Shown here in pieces: positions 41,965-44,886 of a DNA stretch of 64,000 nucleotides. Every line of letters starts with the position of its first letter. Position 1 is the first letter of the stretch. The stretch is from Wenzhouxiangella sp. XN79A (GTDB lineage Bacteria > Pseudomonadota > Gammaproteobacteria > Xanthomonadales > Wenzhouxiangellaceae), in the NCBI RefSeq assembly GCF_012272825.1, contig NZ_JAAWWS010000156.1:48133-112132 (forward strand). Reading direction: 5' to 3'. The notes under the pieces are model-generated. The model was not told the origin of the DNA and searched no databases. It worked only from the letters and a program-made list of their open reading frames with translations. Position numbers and translations under genes: made by a program.

Positions 41965-41976
41965 GTCCAGCTGAAG

Positions 41977-42056
41977 TCTTAACTCAGCGGCGCGGTTCTA
42001 GCCGCGTCCGGTGGAGGTCCGAAGGGCCGGAACGTACTTGAGCGACTTGCTTATGC
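41977..42056 (-). repeat. attC-1 (after hicAB)
   Basis: 80-bp attC read on the lower strand: R'' box GCATAAG at 42056-42050, then a palindromic body with GTCGCTCAAG and the GC-rich hairpins, ending at R' box GTTAAGA (41983-41977). It departs from the consensus: R'' has G instead of C at the last position and R' ends in A. The hicB stop codon TAA lies inside the R'' box. Confidence 0.85.
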
Positions 42057-42290
42057 GATTTGCTGTAGCGAGTTGGCAAGATCTCGGCCAGCTGTCGGTG
42101 GCGGGAGGGGCTTCCCCTCCTTGTGGTAAAGATCGATGATATCGTCCACGATCTGACAGAGTTGGTCGAAGACCTCCTTCTCGTCGTCGCCGTGGCAGCC
42201 GCCATAGACGAGGCCGGGTGCGCTACCCACAAAACACTGGTCTTCCTCCGACCACTCCACAATCTTGGCGTAGAGGGCACTTTCCTTCAT
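42051..42290 (-). CDS. hicB: HicB family antitoxin
   Basis: 79-residue partial-RNase H-fold antitoxin: SALYAKIVEWSEEDQCFVGS then APGLVYGGCHGDDEKEVFDQL, the HicB core. It would neutralise the HicA nuclease and probably bind DNA to repress the pair, although no clear C-terminal DNA-binding domain remains in this short form. Its ATG overlaps the hicA stop by four bases. Its stop codon is supplied by attC-1. Confidence 0.88.
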   Translation of the reverse strand: MKESALYAKIVEWSEEDQCFVGSAPGLVYGGCHGDDEKEVFDQLCQIVDDIIDLYHKEGKPLPPPTAGRDLANSLQQIA

Positions 42291-42484
42291 TTCTTCGCCT
42301 CCTGGACGGCCTTTTCTACCGCCCGAATCTGGTATTTCCTGGCGTCATCTCCGAGTTTGCCGGAAATCGTCACAGGTTTCGACACATTCGGGTGGACGAA
42401 ATTCCGGTGGCAACCCTTTCCACCCCGGTTCCGGAAGCCTGCCTTTTCGAGGCTCTTGACGAGTTCACGGACTTTGGGCGGCAC
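42287..42484 (-). CDS. hicA: HicA family mRNA interferase toxin
   Basis: 65-residue YcfA/HicA-type toxin with a double-stranded RNA-binding fold: VRELVKSLEKAGFRNRGGKG followed by the catalytic-histidine motif GCHRNFVHP and KPVTISGKLGDDARKYQIRAV. It is expected to cleave mRNA until bound by HicB. The start is GTG with a clear AGGAG eight to nine bases upstream. The toxin-first order and overlap with hicB are standard. The pair forms a single two-gene integron cassette. Confidence 0.88.
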   Translation of the reverse strand: MPPKVRELVKSLEKAGFRNRGGKGCHRNFVHPNVSKPVTISGKLGDDARKYQIRAVEKAVQEAKK

Positions 42485-42513: not shown

Positions 42514-42600
42514 ACATAACGTCTGAGCTAAGCGGCGCGGCTTTAGCCGCGTCCGGTGGAGGCCCGAAGGGCCGGAACGTACTTGAGCGACTTGTTAGGC
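42514..42600 (-). repeat. attC-2 (between HEPN-like and hicAB cassettes)
   Basis: 87-bp attC on the lower strand: R'' GCCTAAC (42600-42594) and R' GTTATGT (42520-42514). Between them lie AAGTCGCTCAAG and CTTAGCTCAGAC as imperfect L boxes, plus two GC-rich hairpins (CGCGGC-TAAA-GCCGCG and GGCCC-TTC-GGGCC). The stop codon of the HEPN-like gene lies inside R''. Confidence 0.92.
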
Positions 42601-43146
42601 ATCATTGCCTTCGGCTTCCGAACTATGGGGGGACTTGTACCGCTCCAACATTTCGGGATTGTTCTGCGCGACCTGAAAGAAGAACTTGCTCATTTTTTGT
42701 AGCAGCCACCGCAACATCTGCTCAAGCGCCAATAACTCGGATTTCTCCAGATGCAAACCCTCGTTGAATTGGAAGTGCGGAAAATTGTACTCGCCATCTA
42801 GAACAGGAAATGTGCTCGTACGAAAGTGCATTTCTTCTTCGTCAGAATGCGCAATAATTTTCCTTCTCAGATGCATAATGCGGTCAAGAAGCTCTCGATG
42901 TCCCTGATTGAGTTTGATTCCCAGAGCGCGCAAGCTAAGCTGAGATCCGGCTCGCGAATTCTCAAGTGGTCTAGCCATAGAGATAATCAGCGTTGTTTCG
43001 AAGCAACGGAACTTCCTCAAATCGACCCGACTATACCTTTCTTCGAAGTCACACTCCTCAAGAAGAAATGTCAGCGCGGACAACGCCTGCTGCAGATCCC
43101 ATGATGCGTAGATTGCCCTAATCAACTGCGCCTCAGTTATCCTCAT
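42595..43146 (-). CDS. HEPN-like cassette protein (R-x4-H motif)
   Basis: 183-residue, mostly helical, soluble protein from the second cassette. I cannot assign a named family. The segment LLDRIMHLRRKIIAHSDEEE contains R95-KIIA-H100, the R-x4-6-H motif typical of HEPN ribonucleases, on a predicted helix. An earlier basic block is LRKFRCFETTLIISMARPLENSR (about 43-65). Codon use is AT-rich compared with neighbours. The ATG lies four bases after the attC-3 R' box, whose AGG is the only ribosome-binding purine run. The TAA stop is within attC-2. Confidence 0.75.
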   Translation of the reverse strand: MRITEAQLIRAIYASWDLQQALSALTFLLEECDFEERYSRVDLRKFRCFETTLIISMARPLENSRAGSQLSLRALGIKLNQGHRELLDRIMHLRRKIIAHSDEEEMHFRTSTFPVLDGEYNFPHFQFNEGLHLEKSELLALEQMLRWLLQKMSKFFFQVAQNNPEMLERYKSPHSSEAEGNDA

Positions 43147-43149
43147 GAT

Positions 43150-43237
43150 GCCTAACCGTCTGAGCTAAGCGGCGCGGCTTTAGCCGCGTCCGGTGGAGGC
43201 CCAGAGGGCCGGAACGCAATTGAGCGACTTGTTATGC
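43150..43237 (-). repeat. attC-3 (between first and second cassettes)
   Basis: 88-bp attC on the lower strand with R'' GCATAAC (43237-43231) and a perfect R' GTTAGGC (43156-43150). The body is nearly identical to attC-2, differing in a few bases (CAATT for TACTT, and AGA for GAA in a loop). Confidence 0.93.
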
Positions 43238-43243
43238 GGCATC

Positions 43244-43663
43244 TTACCCTCGCCGCAACTTATTGAATAAAAGGTACCCCAGGAACATACCACCAGCCAC
43301 AATTACCGCGAAAATTGCCAAAACAAAAAGTGTGGCAAACAGCGCCCCGAAACCATGAACGGTGCTGCCGTTCCAGGTAACTGTTCCCGCACCAAAGACT
43401 CCCGCCAAGCCTAAAAGCCCAATCAACAAGCCCCAGCTACAGAGAAAACTGCCGACGAAATCCAGAAAATCGGCGCCGGCTTGTAATGGCTTGTGTTGCA
43501 CGCCCTTTATGGCGTTCAGCTCGCCCTCCAGACTGGCAGCACGTTGCGATTTCTGTTCCATTGCGTCTGAGAGCTTCTTAGCTCGCTCGGGGTATGCTGC
43601 TCTATCAATACTGGACAAAGCTTGCTCCAGCTCTGCGATAGTGTATTTATCTATGTCACCCAT
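43244..43663 (-). CDS. Two-helix membrane protein, first cassette
   Basis: 139-residue protein from the cassette next to attI. Residues 1-55 are charged and helical with heptad-like spacing (YTIAELEQALSSID, KLSDAMEQKSQRAASLEGELNAI), so a coiled coil is likely. Two membrane helices follow, about 66-92 and 105-132, with a short loop (TVTWNGSTVHG). No family is recognised. Base composition is AT-rich. The start lies 11 bases after the attI/cassette junction. Being first in the array, it would be the best-expressed cassette if a Pc promoter exists. Confidence 0.75.
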   Translation of the reverse strand: MGDIDKYTIAELEQALSSIDRAAYPERAKKLSDAMEQKSQRAASLEGELNAIKGVQHKPLQAGADFLDFVGSFLCSWGLLIGLLGLAGVFGAGTVTWNGSTVHGFGALFATLFVLAIFAVIVAGGMFLGYLLFNKLRRG

Positions 43664-43673
43664 AACCTGTTCC

Positions 43674-43735
43674 GCATAACTAGAAAATATGTGGCGAAAA
43701 GGCTGTGTAGCGAGTAGGCGTGCAAAAATGCTCGT
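43674..43735 (-). other. attI candidate / cassette junction
   Basis: On the lower strand a GTTATGC box (43680-43674) marks the junction between the first cassette and the sequence upstream of intI. It matches the attC R' boxes in sequence. The exact right boundary of attI cannot be read by eye; the 250 bases between here and the intI start presumably hold attI and both promoters. No convincing -35/-10 pair was found. Confidence 0.55.
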
Positions 43736-43929
43736 TAGTACGCGTGTTTCCGCAGTCAGGAATTGCCAAGTATCTGATTTTCAACGCCCTGCCCCACAGT
43801 TCGTTCGGAGATATCCTGCACGAACGCCGCTTAGCGCGCAAGTTTCCTACGCGATTCCGGGTGATTTTCCGATGGTGCGTCGCGTTTCTTCGTGGCGGAA
43901 TGGGATCCAGTCCTCACGCGGCAGCCCCG

Positions 43930-44886
43930 ATGGCCGAGAAGCTTCTCGATCGAATGCGCCGGATCATCCGGGTCCGGCACTACAGCAGAAAGACCGAGCA
44001 GGCGTACCTGCGCTGGGTTCGGCGATTCATCCTGTTTCACGGGAAGCGTCACCCGAAGACGATGGGGGCCGAGGAGGTCACGGCCTTTCTGAGCCACCTG
44101 GCCGTCGAGCGGGGCTGCGCGGCTGCGACCCAGAACCAGGCACTGAACGCGATTCTCTTCCTGTACCGCCGAGTACTGGAGATCGAACTGCCCTGGCTCG
44201 ACGAGGTGGTCCGGGCCAAGCGGCCGCAGCGGGTGCCGGTGGTGCTGACGGCGTCGGAGGTTCGGGCCGTTCTTGCACAGCTGCCGCCGCCCCACGATCT
44301 GATTGCGCAACTGCTCTACGGCTCGGGCCTGCGTGTGGGCGAGGCCGCCGCGCTCCGGATCAAGGACGTGGATACGGACCGCCGGTCGATCACGGTCCGG
44401 GACGGCAAGGGTGCCAAGGACCGCATCACGGTGCTGGCCGATCGCTGCATCGAGCCCATCGGCCGACAGATCGAACGGGCCGCCACGCTGGCCAGGCGGG
44501 ACCGCGATCGGGGCGAAGGCGGCGTGATCCTGCCCTTCGCGCTGGCCCGGAAATACCCGAACGCGCAGTTCGACGAGGCCTGGATGTTCGTCTTCCCCGC
44601 GCGCCGGCTCAGCCGGGAACCGCGAAGCGGACGAATCGCTCGCTATCACGTGCTGACCGGTACGATTCAGCGCGCGATCAAGAAGGCGGCGCAACGCGCC
44701 GGCATTCGCAAGCCGGTGACCAGCCACGCGTTCCGCCACAGCTTCGCGACCCACCTGCTGGAATCCGGCGCCGACATCCGAACGATCCAACAACTACTGG
44801 GCCATTCCGACGTGCGCACGACGATGATCTACACCCACGTCGTCCAGCGCGGCGCGCTGGGGGCGCGGAGTCCCTTCGACGGTTGA
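43930..44886 (+). CDS. intI: Integron integrase IntI
   Basis: 318-residue tyrosine recombinase that inserts and excises cassettes at attI and attC. N-terminal SAM-like domain: RHYSRKTEQAYLRWVRRFILFH. Catalytic residues R135 (YGSGLR), K160 (RDGKGAKDR), H266 and R269 (SHAFRHSF), H292 (LLGHSD) and Y301 (IYTHV) are all present and offset by 11 from IntI1. The integron-specific insertion KYPNAQFDEAWMFVFPARRLS (about 208-228) separates it from XerC/D. Start at MAEKLLDRMRR gives the usual length; longer in-frame starts at 43720 and 43900 are less likely. The gene appears intact. Confidence 0.95.
   Translation: MAEKLLDRMRRIIRVRHYSRKTEQAYLRWVRRFILFHGKRHPKTMGAEEVTAFLSHLAVERGCAAATQNQALNAILFLYRRVLEIELPWLDEVVRAKRPQRVPVVLTASEVRAVLAQLPPPHDLIAQLLYGSGLRVGEAAALRIKDVDTDRRSITVRDGKGAKDRITVLADRCIEPIGRQIERAATLARRDRDRGEGGVILPFALARKYPNAQFDEAWMFVFPARRLSREPRSGRIARYHVLTGTIQRAIKKAAQRAGIRKPVTSHAFRHSFATHLLESGADIRTIQQLLGHSDVRTTMIYTHVVQRGALGARSPFDG

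Follow-up and report, generated by a model that had tools for sequence, protein, structure and literature searches.

An integron cassette of Wenzhouxiangella encoding a probable stand-alone HEPN-type RNase of an unnamed family

The window analysed here, a stretch of 64,000 nucleotides from Wenzhouxiangella sp. XN79A, contains an integron whose full-length integrase gene, intI, lies on the + strand, adjoins the cassettes and is transcribed away from them. To the left of intI we located three 86-nt repeats with attC-type ends (at 43157, 42520 and 41975). The gene under study, at 42595-43146 on the - strand, is a genuine open reading frame (ORF) with an ATG start and 183 codons in the ORF listing of the window. 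Read from intI along the array, the features are:

43720..44886, + strand: integron integrase gene intI, divergent from the cassettes (TIGR02249, 8.1e-135, positions 1-313 of 315)
43244..43663, - strand: first cassette, coding for a 139-aa protein of no family with a hydrophobic C-terminal half
43150..43237, - strand: attC of the preceding (first) cassette (GCATAAC...GTTAGGC)
42520..43155, - strand: whole HEPN-like cassette of 636 bp, bounded by G^TTAGGC (43156/43155) and the following G^TTATGT (42520/42519), as read directly and from the repeat spacing
42595..43146, - strand: HEPN-like ORF, 183 aa, 48% GC against 68.5% outside the integron in the window
42970..42972, - strand: codon of R59, the invariant Arg of an (A)RPF motif, which lies close to where predicted helix 2 ends
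42847..42867, - strand: codons of R94-R95-K-I-I-A-H100, the conserved R-x5-H motif (R94, A99 and H100 invariant in 23/23)
42514..42600, - strand: attC of the HEPN-like cassette (GCCTAAC...GTTATGT), matched 10 times in its own genome at E ≤ 0.001, itself included
42051..42484, - strand: third cassette, hicA (PF07927, 1.7e-10) and a hicB-like partner
41975..42060, - strand: third attC-like repeat, 81% identical, at the end of the HicAB cassette

The R'' boxes in the window read GTTATGY and were not matched by our initial attC pattern, GTTRRRY; the cassette boundaries were therefore read directly. The ATG stands 9 nt past G^TTAGGC and the TAA stop falls within the R' box GCCTAAC of the attC, so that the gene fills its cassette and a same-strand antitoxin gene cannot fit. 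When folded as single-stranded DNA, the attC was not clearly better than shuffled sequences (z -1.1), and the attC call thus rests on the repeats, the junctions and the integrase. The ORF lies between attC sites in an array beside a divergent intI and is, by this arrangement, an integron gene cassette. The first-pass annotation had described it as such, and the full-length integrase and the boundaries bear this out.

Several observations concern the rest of the array. The 139-aa protein of the first cassette (43244-43663, - strand) is coiled in its N-terminal half and probably has two membrane helices. The next cassette after the HEPN-like one (42051-42484, - strand) holds a HicA/HicB toxin-antitoxin pair, whose HicB-like partner has no Pfam match. 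Three further contigs of this genome, C14, C36 and C46 (L048, L049 and L050), contain seven more attC-like sites, 75-100% identical to the attC of the HEPN-like cassette, so that cassettes exist away from intI.

In Pfam, NCBIfam, PADLOC and PHROGs, no family was recognised for the 183-aa protein and no library cut-off was reached. Pfam matches to RhoGAP (0.048), DUF and coatomer families were dismissed as chance, and weak PADLOC matches (CARF at 0.00017 in homologue L008, PDC-M45A, AbiEi and ShosT), which vary between members, were not used. Two antisense ORFs of 73 and 92 aa within the gene were weighed as antitoxins and set aside as putative by-products of the overlap. A scan for sigma-70 promoters returned only sites at chance level.

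We collected 22 homologues, with identities down to about 14%. Searches gave six relatives at 53-65% identity in bacterial genomes and nine plasmid records at 27-34%. The first-pass annotation had seen an RNase motif, R95-x4-H100, in the helix LLDRIMHLRRKIIAHSDEEE. This string is present in the protein and holds R94, R95 and H100, but shuffled proteins of the same composition contain Rx4H in 47% of cases and Rx4-6H in 85%, so that a bare Rx4H match is no better than chance and carries no weight. In the alignment of 23 sequences, R59, R94, A99 and H100 are invariant (23/23), whereas position 95 is occupied by N (12), R (5), D (3), K, G and H (one each), that is, by N, D or H in 16 of the 23. 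HEPN motifs take the form Rx4-6H, in which the arginine is followed by a polar residue that is N, D or H in most cases (PMC3710099), and this form is found here. Since R94 is invariant and the residue following it is mostly N, D or H as in this rule, the catalytic pair would be R94-x5-H100. Judging from the alignment, the true motif is R-[NDH]-x4-H (Rx5H), and R95 is the polar position after the predicted catalytic arginine. The acidic feature of helix 2 (Ex3[KR]) is represented by E50 in 14 of the 23 sequences and its canonical spacing is absent; not all HEPN proteins have a conserved acidic residue in this helix (PMC3710099).

Structure prediction followed by a Foldseek search, the check proposed along with the HEPN assignment, delivered the helices and not the match. 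AlphaFold2 reached a pLDDT of 74.9 with 8 sequences and 79.2 with 13, the latter model placing four helices at residues 5-31, 40-61, 81-101 and 135-162. Predicted helix 3 carries R94...H100 at its C-terminal end and is separated from helix 2 by an insert; both the position of the motif and the insert are features of HEPN domains (PMC3710099). A β hairpin is predicted between helices 3 and 4, and residues 100-107, the loop right after H100, are of low confidence. Foldseek searches of PDB and BFVD with these shallow models, built from only 8 and 13 sequences and run without a known-HEPN control model, gave no match at E ≤ 0.001, and no HEPN structure was among the matches listed. As Foldseek gave no significant HEPN match, it is from the helices and the position of the conserved R94, A99 and H100 that we infer a HEPN four-helix bundle for this protein.

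A link to a known family came from the homologues. HEPN_AbiU2 (PF18734) was the sole Pfam match of three separate homologues, each at the motif and below threshold (E 0.0054, 0.012 and 0.02); the best of them scored 16.7 bits against a cut-off of 26.8, and the protein of the window had no match. When eight AbiU2-family proteins were compared by hhalign, R94...H100 aligned with their Rx5H, and all 60 shuffled controls scored lower. The alignment spans 14 columns at a probability of 1%, so that the AbiU2 link is one of the motif, with no homology demonstrated beyond it. The two share the Rx5H form R[NDH]xxxAH, a motif towards the C-terminal half and, putatively, the stand-alone abortive-infection type, whereas the family described here is set apart by the (A)RPF signature and by fewer residues ahead of the motif. 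We consider its membership in HEPN to be likely.

A HEPN family in integron cassettes was named in 2013 by Anantharaman et al. (Vpc_cass2, PDB 3JRT; PMC3710099, PMC3548836). Like the protein studied here, 3JRT is a small, stand-alone, all-helical cassette protein of a gammaproteobacterial integron, a four-helix bundle with a proposed Rx4-6H RNase motif; for our protein this fold is predicted. Between helices 3 and 4, however, 3JRT has helical extensions where our model has the β hairpin, and its sequence was matched neither by phmmer with the single sequence nor by hmmsearch with the profile (PDB chains, E ≤ 10). Given the absence of sequence likeness to 3JRT and of a name in the four libraries, the family is distinct, yet of a kind already described. 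The suggestion that this could be a new gene thus stands for the family, which is different and unnamed, and gives way for the broader idea, as integron HEPN proteins were proposed in 2013 (PMC3710099, PDB 3jrt).

The distribution of the gene is sporadic, as judged from 101 related genomes, among which only the window's own carries it, and from a phylum-wide draw, in which it occurs in 4 of 399 genomes, its own included. Several homologues are proteins of viral contigs or prophages, with a few more from whole genomes; viral scans by the single sequence and by the L016/L017/L019 branch found nothing. The relatives from Alkalilimnicola, Billgrantia, Idiomarina and Colwellia follow GTTAGGC immediately and extend to GCCTAAC, and are therefore cassettes as well. 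The Idiomarina cassette adjoins an integrase remnant 47.5% identical to the integrase of the window. The Alkalilimnicola and Billgrantia cassettes (L002 and L003) are 98% identical over the ORF, with no more than background identity from G^TTAGGC outwards on one side and past GCGTTA on the other. An identity that ends at both junctions is direct evidence for movement of this cassette type as a unit. The homologous cassette thus moves between genera; unit movement was seen for the Alkalilimnicola/Billgrantia cassette, and the copy in the window is unique so far.

A comparison of the 847 ORFs that neighbour the gene at 19 loci, which comprise plasmids as well as isolated cassettes from five genera, revealed no conserved partner gene. 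Exceptions are an HNH-like protein at two loci and recombinases or DinB/UmuC-type polymerases. The adjacent conserved antitoxin gene that marks a type II toxin-antitoxin system is absent from the cassette and from the 19 loci, in agreement with the first-pass statement that the cassette holds no antitoxin. At single loci, a non-cassette homologue directly precedes an ApeA gene, another precedes a GmrSD_N gene and a RiboL-PSP HEPN gene, and a third adjoins the GAP1-N1 gene of a GTPase-associated conflict system; one homologue opposes lysis genes on a prophage-like contig, whose ORFs were read by inspection. ApeA-like and RiboL-PSP/MAE_28990 HEPN proteins are HEPN effectors of defence loci, and two homologues of the family directly adjoin such genes. 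They have extra domains or operon partners, whereas the family here is single-domain and has no conserved partner.

Some neighbours are noted in their own right. The HNH-like proteins (L002:2080-3075 and L007:3841-4917; CVFCG...KEHILPxWL) are homologous at 39% identity and belong to no Pfam family; the gene lies once upstream of the cassette (L002) and once directly before the family gene (L007). Directly downstream of the Hydrogenophilales homologue, L007:5627-6202 may be HEPN-like (weak PADLOC Csm6 match, 0.0008). A 2'-5' RNA ligase/LigT-type gene (L010:4198-4755) precedes the Sphingobium plasmid homologue, a single occurrence. Enzymes of this type act on cyclic-phosphate RNA ends such as those left by HEPN RNases.

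We favour, at a probability of about 0.6, the reading that the cassette encodes a single-domain, stand-alone HEPN-type RNase, triggered by phage or stress, of a family unnamed in Pfam, NCBIfam, PHROGs and PADLOC. This RNase family is probably anti-phage or dormancy-inducing, with the balance tilting slightly towards a role in defence. Dimerisation would align two R94/H100 pairs into a metal-independent RNase site, whose cleavage would leave a 2',3'-cyclic phosphate. The protein may be kept inactive, or its expression low, as long as no phage infection or stress occurs; on such a trigger, cellular or phage RNA would be cut and growth would stop, as proposed for AbiU2-type abortive-infection HEPN proteins. 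As no antitoxin gene travels with the cassette, control would have to come from the protein, from a low level of expression driven by the integron promoter or from a factor of the host. A bolder version, which we put forward only tentatively, is that this unnamed single-domain HEPN RNase detects phage and brings about death or arrest of the cell with neither antitoxin nor sensor partner, as a self-contained immune gene spread by integrons, plasmids and prophages.

Stress-induced dormancy or maintenance of the integron or plasmid, rather than phage defence, is the role that the same RNase would have in a rather unlikely alternative. A dormancy role was proposed by Anantharaman et al. (2013) for integron HEPN proteins (PMC3710099), and the adjoining hicAB toxin-antitoxin cassette, the cassette carriage and the sporadic distribution are all consistent with it. 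The lack of an antitoxin or conserved partner, however, argues against classical addiction, and the prophage and defence-gene settings of the homologues point to conflict with phages. More doubtful still is a four-helix protein unrelated to HEPN, in which the invariant R59, R94 and H100 would form another active or binding site. The listed Foldseek matches without a HEPN structure and a profile similarity to AbiU2 confined to the motif would fit such a protein, but an Rx5H with polar N, D or H at +1, its position at the end of the third of four helices and AbiU2 as the sole sub-threshold Pfam family in three homologues are jointly improbable by chance. Although many HEPN toxins have antitoxins, as in HEPN-MNT and RnlA/RnlB, we think it very improbable that this protein is the toxin of a pair, with its antitoxin encoded elsewhere in the genome and acting in trans, as no partner is conserved in the 19 loci with their plasmids and isolated cassettes in five genera, and a mobile cassette could hardly depend on a fixed antitoxin in every new host.

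Chromosomal and mobile integrons are known to carry anti-phage cassettes, which are small and of unassigned function (review PMC12409362). In the integron of V. cholerae, at least 16 of 179 cassettes, or about one in ten, protect against phage when expressed (PMC12409362), and most cassettes are still unnamed. Apart from the cassette lists of these anti-phage studies, the literature consulted gave no phage test of the present family. Integron HEPN cassettes and integron anti-phage cassettes have thus been described before, and what is new is this unnamed family. It offers a compact, testable candidate, consisting of a single gene with two key residues and natural cassettes in at least five genera. 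If the protein works alone, one would have to ask what restrains and triggers a toxic RNase that lacks an antitoxin.
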